Below, piece after piece: positions 6,649 through 18,790 of a stretch of DNA of 64,000 nt. Made by a program: the position numbers and the translations under genes. Origin of the DNA: Sphingobacterium sp. CZ-UAM (GTDB lineage Bacteria; Bacteroidota; Bacteroidia; Sphingobacteriales; Sphingobacteriaceae); contig NZ_MTCM01000001.1 of NCBI RefSeq assembly GCF_002000245.1, positions 744,001-808,000 on the forward strand, written 5' to 3'. The notes under the pieces were generated by a model, which had not been told where the DNA came from, ran no database searches, and was given only the letters and a program-made list of their open reading frames with translations. Each line of letters begins with the position of its first letter. Position 1 is the stretch's first letter.

Positions 6649-7605
6649 ATGGAATTCAAACAAGAAGTGGAGCATGTACAATGTTTGATTATTGGTTCAG
6701 GTCCAGCGGGGTATACTGCAGCGATTTATGCAGCCCGTGCGGATATGAAACCGGTGGTTTATACAGGTATTGTACCGGGGGGGCAATTGACACAAACAAC
6801 AGAAGTAGACAATTTTCCGGGATATCCAAAAGGGATTACCGGTCCGGTTATGATGGAAGATCTGCGGGAACAAGCTGAACGCTTTGGGACATCTGTGCGC
6901 TTTGGTTATGTGACCAAAGTAGATTTTACTGGCGATGTACATCGTGTAGAAATTGATGGCACAGTACAAGTTACTGCAGATACAGTGATTATTGCTACAG
7001 GAGCAACAGCAAAATGGCTGGGCTTGGAATCTGAACAAAAATATAACGGTTTTGGGGTATCAGCTTGTGCTGTATGCGACGGTTTCTTCTTTAAAAATCA
7101 GGAAGTGGCCATTGTGGGTGCTGGAGATACTGCCGCTGAGGAAGCCACTTACCTTGCGAAATTATGTTCCAAAGTACATATGTTAGTGCGCCGTGATGAG
7201 TTCCGCGCATCCAAAGCCATGGTACACCGCGTTATGAACACACCTAATATCGAAGTACATTACAACTCCGAAGCAAAAGAGGTTTTAGGTGATGGCCAGG
7301 TAGTCACTGGAATTCGCGTCATCAACAACAAAGACCAATCCGAGAAAGTCCTGGAAGTGACAGGTTTCTTCGTTGCAATTGGTCATAAACCGAATACGGA
7401 GTTATTTACGGGGATATTGGATATGGATGAAACTGGCTACCTGATTACTAAGCCAGATAGTACTGCAACCAATATACCTGGAGTCTTTGCATGTGGAGAT
7501 GTACAGGATAATATATTTCGTCAAGCAATTACTGCCGCCGGTACCGGCTGTATGGCTGCGCTTGAAGCAGAAAGATACCTTGCTGCCAAAGAAAGCGGAG
7601 AATAA
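6649..7605 (+). CDS. trxB: Thioredoxin-disulfide reductase
   Basis: A 318-residue FAD/NADPH enzyme reducing thioredoxin. The FAD-binding GSGPAGYTAA lies near residues 16-25, the redox-active pair is C140-A-V-C143-D-G, the NADPH motif GAGDTAAEEA follows, and the C-terminal FAD motif GVFACGDVQD is present. Length and order match low-molecular-weight bacterial TrxB. It is 27 bp behind the exonuclease gene and is the last gene of the rightward run, with a strong terminator 73 bp after its stop. Confidence 0.97.
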   Translation: MEFKQEVEHVQCLIIGSGPAGYTAAIYAARADMKPVVYTGIVPGGQLTQTTEVDNFPGYPKGITGPVMMEDLREQAERFGTSVRFGYVTKVDFTGDVHRVEIDGTVQVTADTVIIATGATAKWLGLESEQKYNGFGVSACAVCDGFFFKNQEVAIVGAGDTAAEEATYLAKLCSKVHMLVRRDEFRASKAMVHRVMNTPNIEVHYNSEAKEVLGDGQVVTGIRVINNKDQSEKVLEVTGFFVAIGHKPNTELFTGILDMDETGYLITKPDSTATNIPGVFACGDVQDNIFRQAITAAGTGCMAALEAERYLAAKESGE

Positions 7606-7677: not shown

Positions 7678-7706
7678 AAAAAGCCCGATTTGATATCGGG
7701 CTTTTT
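7678..7706 (+). terminator. Rho-independent terminator after trxB
   Basis: AAAAAGCCCGAT and ATCGGGCTTTTT form a perfect 12-bp stem (7678-7689 with 7695-7706) closed by a 5-nt loop and followed by more T residues. It ends the gpsA-to-trxB region. Confidence 0.93.
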
Positions 7707-7764
7707 TTTAGATAACTGCTATTTACCTGGATCTATCTTGTAAAAATAAATAAGTCCTGGGCAG

Positions 7765-7829
7765 AATATAAAAATAGTTTTCAAAAAGACTACTTGATTA
7801 GTAGTCTTTTTGAAAACTATTTTTATATT
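7765..7829. repeat. 29-bp perfect inverted repeat (very stable hairpin)
   Basis: Positions 7765-7793 and 7801-7829 are perfect reverse complements (29 bp) around the 7-nt loop TTGATTA. A further CAGAA (7762-7766) can pair with TTCTG (7831-7835) across a small bulge. The stem is AT-rich and is not followed by a clean T-run, and another terminator already sits just upstream, so ordinary termination does not explain it. The right foot contains TATATTTG (7824-7831), a match to the -7 promoter consensus. It could be an extruding promoter element, a miniature mobile-element remnant, or a very stable 5'-leader or 3'-end structure. Confidence 0.85.
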
Positions 7830-7831
7830 TG
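7824..7831 (+). promoter_or_regulatory. Candidate -7 promoter element for the SusC/SusD/sulfatase operon
   Basis: TATATTTG matches TAnnTTTG and lies on the right foot of the 29-bp inverted repeat, about 280 bp before susC. A transcript from here would include the small ORF at 7896. No -33 TTTG is found at the usual 17-23 bp spacing, so confidence is low. Confidence 0.3.
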
Positions 7832-7895
7832 TTCTGTCGTTAACAATTGGCGTTGGCAACGAACATAAAATCTAGACTACAAATTTTGAACAAGT

Positions 7896-7994
7896 ATGAA
7901 AAACGACTATCTAATCGCTTTTAGAAGCAACGGAGAAACTACTCCAATTTTTAATTCCTTCCTTTTCATTTGTCGAATGCGAATGTGCTGTTAA
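7896..7994 (+). CDS. Small upstream ORF ending in Cys/Met residues (possible leader peptide)
   Basis: A 32-residue ORF from an ATG, starting MKNDYLIAFRSNGETTP and ending ICRMRMCC. Five of its last seven residues contain sulfur (C26, M28, M30, C31, C32). It sits in the long leader of the SusC-SusD-sulfatase-sulfatase operon, 113 nt before the SusC start. The last two Cys codons and the stop lie in a short hairpin (7985-7998) followed by five T residues, an arrangement that resembles a transcription attenuator in which Cys- or Met-tRNA supply is sensed. It has no recognisable domain. That it is translated is inference; an alternative is a fortuitous ORF in a long leader. Confidence 0.5.
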   Translation: MKNDYLIAFRSNGETTPIFNSFLFICRMRMCC

Positions 7995-8006
7995 GCACCC
8001 CTTTTT
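7985..8006 (+). promoter_or_regulatory. Possible attenuator hairpin at the end of the small leader ORF
   Basis: GTGCT (7985-7989) and AGCAC (7994-7998) can pair around a 4-nt loop, followed by CCC and TTTTT to 8006. The stem is only 5 bp, weak for a terminator, but it exactly covers the two terminal Cys codons and the stop of the leader ORF. Confidence 0.3.
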
Positions 8007-8107
8007 CCTTATTTATACTTCGTTAAGTAAGTAATTCGAATTTTAATAACAAGGATACCAATGGCGTTGGCACTTGTTTGCGTATTCACTTTAAAATAGA
8101 ACTGACA

Positions 8108-11100
8108 ATGAAAAATTTCAGCGTACTTTCGTATGCTATATTAATCCTGCTTGTACTGTATACCTTTGTACCGGTCCTGGCACAGCAACCTCAACCGATC
8201 ATCAATGCCTCCTTAATAGGAACAGTAATTGATGGCACGACCAAAGAACCCATTGAAGGGGTGACCATACAACTAGAGGCCGTAACACATAGTGTAAAAA
8301 CAGACCGTAATGGTAAGTTTCAATTTGTCACGGGACAGAAACTTCCTTTTACCCTTATCCTAACCTTTGTTGGTTATCAGAAGAAAAGGGTCGTCGTAAA
8401 TACCTCTCCGGCTGTTATTGAGCTTTCTCCAAGCTCGGAGGATCTGGAGGAAGTCGTGGTGGTCGGATACGGAACCCAAAAACGACGTGATTTGACGGGG
8501 GCAGTGGCTTCCTTACCGGAAAACCTCCTTAAACAACCAGTGTCTTCGCTCGATCAGACCTTAAAAGGTGGAATCGCCGGTGTTCAGGTTACACAAACCT
8601 CAGGACAGCCTGGAGGAGGGGTGAGCATTCGTATTCGGGGCGGTGCTTCCATACAAGGTGGAAATGAGCCGCTGTATGTCATCGATGGCTTTCCAGTATA
8701 TAATCAGACAGAAAGTACAGGTGTCGGAAGCGGTACTCCCGTGAATCCTTTAGCCAGTATCAATCCTGCAGATATTGAAAGTATTGAAGTGCTTAAAGAC
8801 GCTGCGGCGACTGCAATATATGGATCGCGCGGTGCGAATGGCGTTATTCTGGTCACCACGAAAAAAGGAAAAGCCGGCCATGTGCAGTTAAACTATGATG
8901 GTAGTATCGGGACACAAACTGTGCTCAAAAAGATTGATGTGCTGAAAGCGCGTGATTTTGCCATTCTCCGCAACGATGCGCTGTATGATGCCAACCCAAG
9001 TTTGGGGCCAAATCAATATCGGAAACAGTCAGAACTGGATCAATTGGGCGAAGGAACAGATTGGCAAAAAGCGGCCTTCCGGACCGGAAGAATACAAAAC
9101 CACCAACTATCGTTGTCTGGAGGAGCTGAGAAGGTTCAGTATTTTCTGGGTGCTAATTATTTTGATCAGGAAGGTGTCATCCTAAATACAGATTTCAGAC
9201 GCTTGGGATTTCGCTCAAATATCAACGCAAATCCCTTCGATCGCCTGCAGGTAGGGGCCAACTTATCCATTAATAAAACAAACGCACAGATCGCTCCAGC
9301 AGGTATTGTGAATGCATTGCTTATTATGCCGCCGACAGCAACGATATACGAACCTAATGGTACTTACACACTGCGTAACCCCTTTGAGAATATTTTCGCT
9401 AATCCGATAGCAACATTGAAAGAAACGACAAATACATCAAATGGTTTACGGGTTTTGGGTACTTCCTTTGCGCAATATCGTATTTTACAAGGACTGCAGG
9501 CAAAAGTGCTTTTTGGGGTCGATCTGAATAATCGGGATGACAAATTCTATCTTCCGTCTTATATCTATGAGGGTGCGGGATCGAAGGGGGAGGCGAGCTT
9601 AGGAAATTTAAATGGTAACTCTTGGTTGAATGAAAATACCCTAACCTATACCGGGGTTATCGGACAGCATAATTTTAACGCGCTCCTTGGTTTTACACAA
9701 CAGGAAAATAAAAACGAAGTATTTAGTGCCGGTGCGCAGAATTTTGTTACAGATGATTTACTTTTCAATAGTTTACAGAGTGGGTCTACCTTGACTCGAC
9801 CTTCGTCGGACACTTATAATTGGGTCTTGCATTCCTATTTAGCACGGGTAAACTATAATTATTCAAATAAATACTATGTTTCAGCCAGCATACGCCGTGA
9901 TGGTAGCTCCAGGTTTGGCGCTAACAATAAATGGGGCAATTTTCCCTCATTGGCATTCTCCTGGCGTATAATAAATGAACCTTTTTTTAAACAGGCTTTC
10001 CCTGCTATTGATGACTTTAAAATACGAACAAGTTTTGGTACAACCGGAAATCAGGAGATAGGACAATATCAGTCACTCTCCACACTGTATAGCCTAAATT
10101 ATCTCTTTGGAAATAACGTGGTCACAGGCTTTGCGTCGCAACGGGTTCCAAACAAGAATCTGGGCTGGGAAACCACGTTCCAATATGATGCTGGTTTTGA
10201 CCTTTCACTCTTGAAAAACCGATTACAGTTTACCGCCGACTATTATTATAAAAAGACGAAAGACCTATTGTTGAATGTTGAGATACCCTGGACCTCAGGT
10301 TATGCCACTTCCTTACAAAACTTTGGATCTGTTTCAAATCAAGGTTTGGAGTTTGGCCTGAAATCAAAAAATCTACAGGGAAACTTTAGTTGGAATACAG
10401 ATCTAAATATCTCTTTTAACCGAAATAAAGTGTTAACTATTGGTGAAGGAGCTACATCTTACATTACTGGAAACTATATTATTAAGGTAGGAGAGCCTTT
10501 GGGTACTTTCTATGGGACCGTAATCGATGGTATTTTACAACTGGGTGAGGAGAGTAGTAAAGGAGTATTAACCGGGAACGCCAATCCGAAGGCTGGGGAT
10601 CGCGTGTATAAGGATATTAATGGCGACGGCCAGTTTACCACTGCCAACGACCGGACCATCATCGGCAACGCACAACCTGATTTTATATTTGGTATCAGTA
10701 ATACGCTTTCTTACAAAGGATTTGATTTGTCTTTCTTGATTCAGGGAACTGTTGGCAATGACTTACTGAACATCAACCGCCAAAACCTTGAGATGTTTAC
10801 CGGTCAGCAGAACGCATCAATTGATGCACTTAAACGCTGGACAACAAGCAATCCAAGTCAGCTATACCCGAGGGCCAAGCTGGATCCTGCTCCGGTATTC
10901 TCGAATCAGTTTGTTGAAAGTGGATCATTTGCCCGGCTGAAATCCCTGCAGTTTGGCTACAACTTTCCAAAAGAATGGTTGAAAAATGCACATATTACAA
11001 ATTTGAACCTATATCTGGCTGCACAAAATCTATTGACATGGACCAATTATAGGGGGTTTGATCCTGAGGTAACTTCAGGTAGCAATGTCCAGATTGGTAC

Positions 11101-11161
11101 GGATGCTGGAATTTATCCTGCCGCTAAGTCTATATCTATAGGTTTATCCTTAACCTTCTAA
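8108..11161 (+). CDS. SusC/RagA-family TonB-dependent outer-membrane transporter
   Basis: A 1017-residue outer-membrane protein counted from the ATG at 8108, which is followed at once by a signal peptide ending at VLAQQ; an in-frame TTG at 8078 would spoil the signal peptide. Next comes a carboxypeptidase-regulatory-like beta domain (GTVIDGTTKEPIEGVTI...), then the TonB-box and plug (EEVVVVGYGTQKRRDLTGAV), and a long beta-barrel ending in ISIGLSLTF with a terminal aromatic residue. It imports oligosaccharides across the outer membrane with its SusD partner, which follows after 15 bp. The sulfatases downstream point to a sulfated glycan as ligand. Confidence 0.96.
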   Translation: MKNFSVLSYAILILLVLYTFVPVLAQQPQPIINASLIGTVIDGTTKEPIEGVTIQLEAVTHSVKTDRNGKFQFVTGQKLPFTLILTFVGYQKKRVVVNTSPAVIELSPSSEDLEEVVVVGYGTQKRRDLTGAVASLPENLLKQPVSSLDQTLKGGIAGVQVTQTSGQPGGGVSIRIRGGASIQGGNEPLYVIDGFPVYNQTESTGVGSGTPVNPLASINPADIESIEVLKDAAATAIYGSRGANGVILVTTKKGKAGHVQLNYDGSIGTQTVLKKIDVLKARDFAILRNDALYDANPSLGPNQYRKQSELDQLGEGTDWQKAAFRTGRIQNHQLSLSGGAEKVQYFLGANYFDQEGVILNTDFRRLGFRSNINANPFDRLQVGANLSINKTNAQIAPAGIVNALLIMPPTATIYEPNGTYTLRNPFENIFANPIATLKETTNTSNGLRVLGTSFAQYRILQGLQAKVLFGVDLNNRDDKFYLPSYIYEGAGSKGEASLGNLNGNSWLNENTLTYTGVIGQHNFNALLGFTQQENKNEVFSAGAQNFVTDDLLFNSLQSGSTLTRPSSDTYNWVLHSYLARVNYNYSNKYYVSASIRRDGSSRFGANNKWGNFPSLAFSWRIINEPFFKQAFPAIDDFKIRTSFGTTGNQEIGQYQSLSTLYSLNYLFGNNVVTGFASQRVPNKNLGWETTFQYDAGFDLSLLKNRLQFTADYYYKKTKDLLLNVEIPWTSGYATSLQNFGSVSNQGLEFGLKSKNLQGNFSWNTDLNISFNRNKVLTIGEGATSYITGNYIIKVGEPLGTFYGTVIDGILQLGEESSKGVLTGNANPKAGDRVYKDINGDGQFTTANDRTIIGNAQPDFIFGISNTLSYKGFDLSFLIQGTVGNDLLNINRQNLEMFTGQQNASIDALKRWTTSNPSQLYPRAKLDPAPVFSNQFVESGSFARLKSLQFGYNFPKEWLKNAHITNLNLYLAAQNLLTWTNYRGFDPEVTSGSNVQIGTDAGIYPAAKSISIGLSLTF

Positions 11162-11176
11162 CTTATACAGATCGCA

Positions 11177-12646
11177 ATGAAAAAAAAATATTATCCCATC
11201 ACCTTATTCATCGTTTTGTTAACCGGAATATCTTGTTCAAAATTGACTGAGAAGCCCGAGAGCGCATTGGTTTCGGAGCAGTTCTACCTGAATCAAGGAC
11301 AGGCCGTTGCTGCAGTGACAGGTACTTATCGAAAACTGTATGAAACAGGACAATCTTTGTACAACAGTTTATTTCAGATTGCTGTGGAAATGGCGACAGA
11401 TGATTATGAGGCCGGACCTCGCGCGCGGAATGCCCATGTGCGCGCTATAAGCAACTTAACCCACGACGCCTCAAATGACCGAATGGAACAACTCTGGAAA
11501 CAGAGTTATGATGCCATTAATGCATCAAATCTGAATATCGTTAATATTGAAGCGATGACGCAAAATCAGATTGATGTCACCATACAGCAACGGTTGATCA
11601 ATGAAGCCAAATTCCTACGGGCATTACATTATTTCAATCTAGTACGCTGGTTTGGCCCTGTTCCACTCGTTTTACGTCCGATTGAAGGTTTATCGGCAGA
11701 AGAACTGTATGTGTCAAAGGCGTCAGAAAATGAGGTCTATGCACAGATTATAAACGATTTAAAAGCGGCTTCCAGCTTGCCGAATTATAAAAATTATGGC
11801 GATGCAGACAAAGGGCGGGCTACATCCGGTGCGGCTAAAAGCCTTCTGGCAAAGGTATACCTGACCCAGTCAGATTGGACTAATGCGAAGCTGCTGGCCA
11901 AGGATGTGATTGACAAAGAAGGATATGCGCTTTTTCCAGATTTTTCAGATGTCTTCAATACAGAGAAAAAAAATGGTATTGAACATATTTTTTCGGCGCA
12001 ATTTAAAGGAAATAGTGGTTACCAAGGGAATTCATTGGCAAGTCGTTCTGCGCCGGCGGATATACCCGGGATCAATGGGGACTATGCCGATGCTTTACAT
12101 AGCGAGGGTGGTCTCTATAAGAGCTTCGCAGTAGATGATAAACGCCTTTCTGTGACCTTTACAACAGGTATGATATCACCCAAAGATGGTAAATACTATG
12201 CGCTGACCAAACCACAATTCAATAAGTATTATGACCAGACCGTGGTCGGTAATCAATCTCAGTCTTCAAAAAATACGCCCATCATACGATATGCTGAAGT
12301 TTTGCTTATACTGGCTGAAGCAGAGAATGAATTAAATGGTCCAACACAGGAGGCTCGGGATGCAATTAATGCGGTGCGCGCAAGGGCCGGCATCGAAAAG
12401 CTGTCTGGGACTGAAAACAAAGATAGCTTTCGGGAACTGGTATTTGAGGAACGACGGAAAGAATTGGTGTACGAGTACCAGCGCTGGTTTGATTTGGTAC
12501 GTCGAGGGGCGAATTATTATATCAGCAAATTAAAAGCTGCGGGAAAAACGAATGCCGCACCGCGACATCTTCATTTTCCAACGCCGCAACGAGAGCTGAA
12601 TTTGAATCCGAAATTGGTTCAACATCCGGACTGGTTGGCCAAATAG
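11177..12646 (+). CDS. SusD/RagB-family nutrient-binding lipoprotein
   Basis: A 489-residue surface glycan-binding lipoprotein that caps the SusC barrel. The N-terminus is a lipoprotein signal with the lipobox ending at GISC, so the mature protein starts at Cys20. The body shows the SusD TPR helices (INEAKFLRALHYFNLVRWFGPVPLV) and the typical C-terminal blocks IRYAEVLLILAEAENEL, AINAVRARAG and EERRKELVYEYQRWFDLVRRG. It lies 15 bp after susC and about 60 bp before the first sulfatase, which fits one operon. Confidence 0.96.
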   Translation: MKKKYYPITLFIVLLTGISCSKLTEKPESALVSEQFYLNQGQAVAAVTGTYRKLYETGQSLYNSLFQIAVEMATDDYEAGPRARNAHVRAISNLTHDASNDRMEQLWKQSYDAINASNLNIVNIEAMTQNQIDVTIQQRLINEAKFLRALHYFNLVRWFGPVPLVLRPIEGLSAEELYVSKASENEVYAQIINDLKAASSLPNYKNYGDADKGRATSGAAKSLLAKVYLTQSDWTNAKLLAKDVIDKEGYALFPDFSDVFNTEKKNGIEHIFSAQFKGNSGYQGNSLASRSAPADIPGINGDYADALHSEGGLYKSFAVDDKRLSVTFTTGMISPKDGKYYALTKPQFNKYYDQTVVGNQSQSSKNTPIIRYAEVLLILAEAENELNGPTQEARDAINAVRARAGIEKLSGTENKDSFRELVFEERRKELVYEYQRWFDLVRRGANYYISKLKAAGKTNAAPRHLHFPTPQRELNLNPKLVQHPDWLAK

Positions 12647-16954: not shown

Positions 16955-18790
16955 ATGAAGTTTCAAAAGGTTTCTCTTTTTGTTCTTTTAGCGTCGGCAT
17001 GTTTCAACGTCAGCGCACAGAACACAACGTCAGCTCAAAAAATGCAGTGGTTTGAGGATGCCAAGCTGGGTGTCTTTATTCATTGGGGGATATATTCCGT
17101 TGATGGTATCTCAGAATCATGGTCTTTCTTCAATAATTATATTAACCACGATAATTATATCAAACAGCTTGATGGTTTTACCGCCAAAAACTATAAGCCA
17201 AGCGAATGGGCTAAATTGATCAAACAAGCTGGGGCGAAGTACAGCGTCATTACAACAAAACATCATGATGGAATCTCTTTATGGAATACCAAAGCGGACA
17301 AAGCCATCACCACGGTGAAAGATGCCGCTGCCAAACAGGATGTTATTACACCATTTGTAGAGGCTATCCAACAGGAGGGGCTACATACCGGTCTCTACTA
17401 TTCTTTACCAGACTGGAGCCATCCTTATTACGACGTATTTACCCGTGCAAGAAAACGCTACGAACTGGCTAAGGAGCCCGATCGTTGGAACCATTATGTT
17501 GAATATTATCAAAAACAGTTAAGCGAGTTATCACAACAATATAAACCCGAATTGATTTGGTTTGATGGGGATTGGGAACATAGTGCTGAGGAGTGGAAAT
17601 CTAAGGAAACTTTATCGCTGTTGCGCAAATATAACCCCAATATCATTATTAATTCGCGTTTAAATCACCATGGCGATTACGAGACTCCTGAGCAAGGCAT
17701 TCCAGTAACCCGGCCGGACGCTAAATTCTGGGAACTTTGCTATACCATGAATGACTCTTGGGGATATCAGCCTTTTGATAAGAAATACAAATCACCCAAT
17801 ATGATTATCCGTACGTTGGTCGATTGTATCTCCATGGGGGGCAATCTCCTTTTGGATATTGGTCCAAAAGCGGATGGAAGCATTCCAGAAGAGCAGATAA
17901 ATATTTTGAAGCAGCTGGGTAGATGGACGAATAAACACGCAGCCGCTATTTATGGAACTAGAGCAGGTATCCCATTCGAAAATTATAACGGTAAGTCCGC
18001 TTTATCAAAAGATGGAAAAACCCTTTATCTCTATGTATATGAGCAGAAAACACAATTGCAACTTAAGGGATTGCTGAATAATTCCGTTCAACGGATTTCC
18101 GTTGTCGGGGATGCGGCTTCGAAGGTGATGGCAACAGCTTCCGATGCAACGATCCAGTTGGATCTGACGAAAGTGAACTTCGATCAGGATGTCACAGTAT
18201 TGGCAGTGGAATTTAAGGATAAGGTTCGGTGGCAAACCCCGCAGGAAAAAGCGGTAAGTTTGGTATCTGTGTTAAATAATAAGCATACTGTTACCGCTTT
18301 AAATCAGATTGCATCAACCCTGCACGATGGAAAAAATATTTTTGATCATTCCGGTTTGACTTTAGACGGTTTGGAAACCAAGCTGCCAACAGGAAATCTG
18401 ACAAACCCAACTGTATTAGATTGGATAAAAAATCATGCCGAAGCACTTTATGAAACTGGAAAAGGACTGCCGGAGGGACATTATGAAGGATTAAGCGCAG
18501 TTTCCAAAGATCGTCAGACCCTCTATCTTTTTGTCGAAGGGACACCGACAGGACCCATCGCGTTAAAAGGAATAAAGAATGGGATTGCACGGATTCGGTT
18601 GGTAGGAGAAGGTTCTATGATCAATCATGAAATTTTCAATAAATTATACTGGAGCAGTATTCCGGGGATCGTTTATATTCAGGCACCAAAGGAACGCCTG
18701 GATAAAAATATGACTGTTATTGCCGTACTATTGGACTCACCCTTGGCATTGCACCGTGAGAAAGTTGGCGCAATTGAAAATAACCTTTAA
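16955..18790 (+). CDS. GH29 alpha-L-fucosidase with duplicated C-terminal domain
   Basis: A 611-residue secreted enzyme (signal peptide to NVSAQ). The GH29 barrel occupies roughly residues 25-320, with the hallmark KLGVFIHWGIYSV, ITTKHHDGISLW, the nucleophile region ELIWFDGDWEH near residue 200, and GGNLLLDIGPKADGSIP. It removes terminal alpha-L-fucose. After the barrel, two similar modules follow: AAAIYGTRAGIPFENY...LSKDGKTLYLYV (from about 325) and AEALYETGKGLPEGHY...VSKDRQTLYLFV (from about 492), so the usual C-terminal beta domain appears in tandem duplicate. Together with the sulfatases this suggests a sulfated fucose-containing substrate. Confidence 0.94.
   Translation: MKFQKVSLFVLLASACFNVSAQNTTSAQKMQWFEDAKLGVFIHWGIYSVDGISESWSFFNNYINHDNYIKQLDGFTAKNYKPSEWAKLIKQAGAKYSVITTKHHDGISLWNTKADKAITTVKDAAAKQDVITPFVEAIQQEGLHTGLYYSLPDWSHPYYDVFTRARKRYELAKEPDRWNHYVEYYQKQLSELSQQYKPELIWFDGDWEHSAEEWKSKETLSLLRKYNPNIIINSRLNHHGDYETPEQGIPVTRPDAKFWELCYTMNDSWGYQPFDKKYKSPNMIIRTLVDCISMGGNLLLDIGPKADGSIPEEQINILKQLGRWTNKHAAAIYGTRAGIPFENYNGKSALSKDGKTLYLYVYEQKTQLQLKGLLNNSVQRISVVGDAASKVMATASDATIQLDLTKVNFDQDVTVLAVEFKDKVRWQTPQEKAVSLVSVLNNKHTVTALNQIASTLHDGKNIFDHSGLTLDGLETKLPTGNLTNPTVLDWIKNHAEALYETGKGLPEGHYEGLSAVSKDRQTLYLFVEGTPTGPIALKGIKNGIARIRLVGEGSMINHEIFNKLYWSSIPGIVYIQAPKERLDKNMTVIAVLLDSPLALHREKVGAIENNL

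Follow-up and report, generated by a model that had tools for sequence, protein, structure and literature searches.

Across Bacteroidota, a recurring arrangement places a short open reading frame (ORF), free in its body but cysteine-coded at its end, downstream of a promoter of the sulfur type and ahead of a sulfur operon headed by susC. The window analysed here is a stretch of 64,000 nucleotides from Sphingobacterium sp. CZ-UAM (contig NZ_MTCM01000001.1, positions 744,001 to 808,000), in which a sequence-only reading had pointed to a 32-codon ORF ending in Cys and Met codons as a possible sulfur-sensing attenuator. Our comparisons argue for a cysteine-sensing leader peptide, a reading to which we assign a probability of roughly 0.8. 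Its most likely role would be that of a switch turning sulfur scavenging on when cysteine is short.

The ORF lies in the ∼275-nt leader of an operon encoding, on the forward strand, a SusC/RagA TonB-linked outer-membrane protein with a PIINASL-type N-terminus (susC, 8108-11161), a SusD/RagB lipoprotein (susD, 11177-12646) and two sulfatases (PF00884; 12708-14300 and 14451-16073). Upstream are trxB (6649-7605) and, between trxB and the leader, the trxB terminator (near 7683-7708). The promoter region contains a palindrome with 20-bp arms and the core CTACT-N5-AGTAG (7774-7820, no strand assigned), probably a regulator binding site, followed by the TATATTTG element (7824-7831, forward strand), a sequence of the Bacteroidota -7 type from which transcription is predicted to start a few nucleotides downstream. 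Box 1, a stem-loop of the form TCGTT-AACAATTGGCGTTGGC-AACGA (7837-7862, forward strand), is placed at the 5′ start of the transcript and is kept in many leaders of the genus; it separates the TATATTTG element from the ATG of the leader ORF, ∼60-65 nt downstream of that element. Behind the ORF (7896-7994, forward strand) comes box 2, a stem-loop AACAAG...AATGGCGTTGG...CTTGTT (8048-8078, forward strand) located 30 nt before susC. Scanning the window against Rfam at gathering thresholds returned tRNA only, with no match to a known riboswitch or T-box.

The leader ORF translates to MKNDYLIAFRSNGETTPIFNSFLFICRMRMCC, with the Cys codons TGC (7986-7988) and TGT (7989-7991) directly before the stop codon TAA (7992-7994). 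Comparison with orthologues confirmed that a 32-codon ORF with a Cys-coded end exists and that both ORF and tail are conserved beyond chance. Its length was 32 codons in eight orthologues of the window's own group, and substitutions were spread evenly over codon positions 1, 2 and 3 (37/39/35). Constant length combined with even substitutions is the pattern predicted for a leader under selection for its translation, length and tail but not for its peptide. In most orthologues the second terminal Cys gives way to R or S; the R-M-C before it (CGA ATG TGY, 7980-7988, forward strand) was kept. A sensor role for the last Cys of the window, which the sequence-only reading had included in the sensor, is not supported by this.

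A search with the leader DNA matched many genomes of the genus, mostly in separate stretches (palindrome plus box 1; box 2). The exact 14-mer GGCGTTGGCACTTG from the 3′ half of box 2 was found at ∼145 sites in 67 of the 94 Sphingobacterium genomes, its reversed control at 0, and 141 sites were analysed with the 8 kb downstream of each. At 103 of these 141 sites an ATG ORF of 15-56 amino acids ended in R-M-C plus 0-6 residues, a criterion set after viewing 27 loci, so that the Sphingobacterium counts are descriptive. The 103 ORFs encoded 99 different leader peptides with bodies unrelated between clusters; as in an attenuator, a short leader ORF is retained in relatives with a drifting body. Tails were coded CGA ATG TGT (72), CGA ATG TGC (28) or CGC ATG TGC (3). 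The ORF was present in 31 of 45 SusC clusters, among which seven of the eight nucleotides of CGAATGTG were fixed, the eighth (the third base of CGA) was shared by 30/31, and the following base was T or C only, compared with a mean of 0.22 bits per base over the 50 nt upstream of this core. The near-invariant CGA shows that some constraint at the nucleotide or codon level acts beyond Cys. In most Sphingobacterium leaders a single Cys codon is conserved, whereas classical attenuators have more. The ORF is deleted from two leaders (L096, L097) that retain box 1, the next hairpin and box 2 and may be natural variants with lost Cys control; in two others (L078, L087) the tail Cys is lost. Since the ORF can be missing or lack its Cys, it is not essential everywhere.

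Loci from other genera were picked solely by similarity of the SusC N-terminus to that of the window, without consulting the leaders, and 20 less similar SusC loci that this search also returned served as controls. An upstream ATG ORF with at least three Cys in its last six codons was found at 24/55 loci, as against 0/20 controls and 0.2% of dinucleotide shuffles. When all 20 amino acids were compared, only Cys was strongly enriched (23 loci, 0.17 expected). The last Cys codon touched the stop in 18 of these 23, and wobble was mixed (TGT 57, TGC 25). Tails of these ORFs run to three, four or even six consecutive Cys at the stop, as in MRCCCCCCA (L296), QYCCCC (L290), ARMCCTCCC (L273) and SRMCVSCCC (L277), the last two of which retain the R-M-C of Sphingobacterium. 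Clustering of Cys codons near the stop is a further attenuator feature. Because the tails had been read before the Cys-tail measure was set, loci from named genomes were tested in turn, now requiring two Cys, yielding 13/16 against 6/64 (p = 4e-8) for genomes that partly overlap the first locus set and loci that are not independent by descent. Among the named genomes with Cys tails are members of Flavobacterium (MKKRMCCR, MKKCLCCK), Mucilaginibacter, Pedobacter, Parapedobacter, Flavihumibacter and Aquirufa. The sequence-only reading had proposed that relatives be searched for the same leader pattern, and this expectation was borne out: a Cys-coded leader ORF before SusCD-sulfatase and other sulfur operons is conserved within the genus and beyond.

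Several leaders carried variants of this arrangement. In L248 and L251 the mini-ORFs M-M-C-stop and M-I-C-stop are preceded by GGAGG, a Shine-Dalgarno-like sequence of a kind unusual for Bacteroidota. Flavobacterium-type leaders (L322, L326, L329, L343, L344, L348, L349, L351) have a second Cys mini-ORF ∼150-240 nt upstream of the first, with the sequences MCFCC, MCSCC, MCICC and MCCCR. At L383, a locus from a Cyclobacteriaceae bacterium with a less similar SusC, an upstream ORF ends in LCSCCCC, which suggests that the Cys leader may reach beyond the window-type SusC branch.

The genes behind these leaders point to sulfur. Sulfatases were present within 8 kb of 38/103 leader sites of the genus and at 18/40 other-genera loci, compared with 0/20 controls, an excess that partly reflects ancestry shared with the query. 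Other leaders of the genus head operons with a YeiH-type transporter (a putative sulfate exporter family, the match falling short of the model's cut-off), with rhodanese/metallo-beta-lactamase proteins, thioredoxin-like proteins or a sigma factor. Sulfatases, the YeiH-type transporter and the rhodanese/metallo-beta-lactamase proteins are downstream genes of the kind expected behind a cysteine attenuator, and sulfate freed by sulfatases feeds cysteine synthesis. At L160 and L144 the leader heads two membrane proteins and a metallo-beta-lactamase/rhodanese protein; a Pfam scan of one membrane protein from operons of this type gave no match.

The promoter leads in the same direction. TATATTTG was the commonest 8-mer in the leaders of relatives, and the palindrome, of the type AGTCTACTN5AGTAGACT, placed AGTAG 18-20 nt before TAnnTTTG in 81/89 palindrome-bearing leader sites of the genus. 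Its right half thus occupies the -33 promoter position, replacing the -33 element. The palindrome was also seen at loci outside susC leaders (L214, L220, L228, L224, L225, L215). Less exact versions are found before a Cys/Met-metabolism PLP enzyme in two species, before a thioredoxin-like gene with an aminotransferase next to it in three, and before a peroxiredoxin at one of the loci read. Occurrence before sulfur and redox genes points to a sulfur regulator; the palindrome is its predicted site, and the loci bearing it probably form a candidate sulfur regulon. A Cys-ending ORF before the PLP enzyme (MNRHMGCVC, L224) had no counterpart in the second species and was attributed to chance. No convincing Cys leader was found directly before cysH and cysD in a stretch excluding the start of that operon.

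We propose that scarce cysteinyl-tRNA would stall the ribosome at the Cys codon or codons adjoining the stop, and in Sphingobacterium the fixed CGA codon two positions earlier may help. Such a stall would alter the behaviour of the rest of the leader so that susC and the downstream genes are expressed. With ample cysteine the ribosome would finish and depart, and the leader would remain off. In the off state, the post-ORF hairpin and box 2 may fold over the start of susC, the leader may be exposed to Rho, or it may pair with an antisense RNA.

An intrinsic terminator on the sense strand, by comparison, fared poorly as a general off switch. The sequence-only reading had drawn attention to the small hairpin that spans the Cys codons and the stop (7985-7998, forward strand; GTGCT-GTTA-AGCAC, 5 bp) and to the T-run three bases 3′ of it (T8002-8006). 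This hairpin occurs in close orthologues only, a 5-bp hairpin alone is weak evidence, and as a terminator it does not appear to exceed chance: a scan gave 6 terminator-like sites against 1.8 in shuffles, 4 of the 6 being the promoter palindrome, and the leader fold showed no excess stability over shuffles (z -0.21). Sense-strand intrinsic terminators were found in 16/89 Sphingobacterium leaders and in none of the other-genera leaders scanned (0/55), and the general terminator was dropped for the family on the latter count. In several leaders of the genus (e.g., L006; judged by eye), the stop is followed directly by a run of pyrimidines that might base-pair with the 5′ arm of the next hairpin, which is the arrangement of classical attenuation.

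Other readings of the tail were weighed against cysteine sensing. If CGAATGTG were a recognition motif in RNA or DNA for a protein or small RNA, its Arg-Met-Cys reading would be incidental, and the use of CGA in 100/103 genus leaders despite five synonymous Arg codons, like the near-invariance of the 8-nt core in 31 clusters, would fit such a site. However, the next base follows Cys wobble (T or C only), a stop comes within a few codons and the frame is kept, in counts partly set by the RMC search rule; as an independent point, other genera without the motif carry in-frame Cys runs in mixed codons. We consider a recognition motif improbable. Methionine, alone or together with cysteine, was suggested as the sensed amino acid by the window tail CRMRMCC, and Met is frequent in Sphingobacterium tails generally, but one Met of RMRMC belongs to the fixed 8-nt core and Met-rich tails were found at 0/55 other-genera loci (0.08 expected). 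Given this lack of Met enrichment in 55 relatives, the part that the sequence-only reading had granted to Met was rejected, and we leave methionine sensing almost no chance. We give equally little credence to the idea that the tail senses metal or redox state as a nascent chain, or that it acts as a Cys-rich peptide in its own right. Cys runs could bind metal, and nascent-chain sensors with Cys motifs exist, yet a terminal Cys is still inside the ribosome at the stop, the bodies are unrelated, ORFs as short as the M-M-C and M-I-C mini-ORFs occur, and the genes downstream concern sulfur and not metals.

A stronger contender, which we nevertheless regard as unlikely, is that an antisense RNA acting on the box-2 hairpin is the main control and that the leader ORF merely keeps the leader translated. 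The DonS-type cis-antisense RNAs of Bacteroides PULs are 78-128 nt long and antisense to susC homologues (PMC7366714). Among relatives, 23/55 loci (e.g., L273, L281, L300) had a terminator-like site on the antisense strand, mostly 97-122 nt before susC, as did 38/89 genus leaders (0.9 expected in each set), and a position ∼100 nt before susC fits the size and location of DonS. CAAAnnTA, an antisense -7-like word, is concentrated no more than 20 nt from where susC starts. Box 2, ∼30-60 nt before susC across leaders, covaries: its outer stem changes on both sides in 9/9 inter-genus pairs, and the whole structure gave 27 covarying cells against 9.0 in shuffles, in an alignment padded by hand. Antisense terminator, CAAAnnTA and covarying box 2 together suggest that leaders of relatives encode a DonS-like cis-antisense RNA, here predicted from sequence and, unlike DonS, joined to a Cys leader ORF and a covarying hairpin. 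Against antisense control as the main layer, it leaves the Cys enrichment at the ORF end unexplained, and the antisense-strand terminator is missing from the window's own orthologue group. Support at the window locus therefore extends to the Cys leader and box 2 only.

The box-2 loop is UUGGCG in one leader class, and a CGCCAA hairpin occupies the same position in the other; the two almost never occur together. Six leaders (L246, L260, L264, L273, L292, L295) have a hairpin loop GUAACGCCAAUCAC ∼70 nt before susC, with a core that is the reverse complement of the UUGGCG core. UUGGCG/CGCCAA loop pairing plus a leader peptide is also found in the ColIb-P9/IncI repZ leader. The likeness is a lead only, for no cis pairing partner was found here and the genes are unrelated. 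A two-layer switch, in which a stall on Cys shortage governs a cis-antisense RNA kissing the UUGGCG/CGCCAA loop of box 2 before susC, would couple the sensing of an amino acid to antisense regulation of sulfur scavenging at the outer membrane throughout Bacteroidota, and we rate it as rather a long shot. Pairing of a trans-encoded RNA with CAATTGGCGTTG was rejected, since the only exact complement in the own genome is the box-1 copy. Box 2 as a second coding ORF was also discarded, its frame differing between loci by eye.

Cys-coded leaders have precedents in other phyla. Mycobacteria and further Actinobacteria have leader ORFs that end in Cys codons (PMC1262725, PMC4633059), and polycysteine leader ORFs were described there by Canestrari et al. 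2020, as cited in PMC13236596. Like the Bacteroidota leaders, the mycobacterial ones lie in front of sulfur genes and place Cys codons immediately before the stop of a short upstream ORF, and no conserved hairpin terminator was found there either (PMC1262725). They differ in that the Bacteroidota leaders, in another phylum, precede SusC/D uptake and sulfatase genes, can be present in several copies per genome and, in Sphingobacterium, end in R-M-C with one fixed Cys. Whereas the mycobacterial leaderless sORF lies at the transcript 5′ end, the Sphingobacterium ORF would be preceded by a 5′ region of ∼60 nt, which contains box 1 and is measured from the promoter element to the ATG. The uORFC-8-2 motif before cysS in Rhodobacterales is likewise an upstream ORF with Cys codons, two in tandem, read as ribosome-mediated attenuation (PMC8632094), but it has an intrinsic terminator and controls Cys-tRNA synthetase, whereas the Bacteroidota leaders have no conserved sense-strand terminator and would control scavenging. 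The Cys leader ORFs described in Actinobacteria and alphaproteobacteria control cysteine synthesis or tRNA charging, and a literature search of partial coverage returned no Cys leader ORF for Bacteroidota or SusC/D systems.

If cysteine sensing by these leaders holds, one SusC/D branch would serve sulfur rather than carbon supply, and a Cys-ending leader ORF plus palindrome would be a sequence tag for sulfur-scavenging loci among SusC/D operons of unknown substrate. It would also offer a system in which leader translation and antisense RNA may be coupled. In the window, an alpha-L-fucosidase gene (16955-18790) follows the two sulfatases after a gap of 880 nt, and the substrate of the operon is possibly sulfated and fucose-containing.
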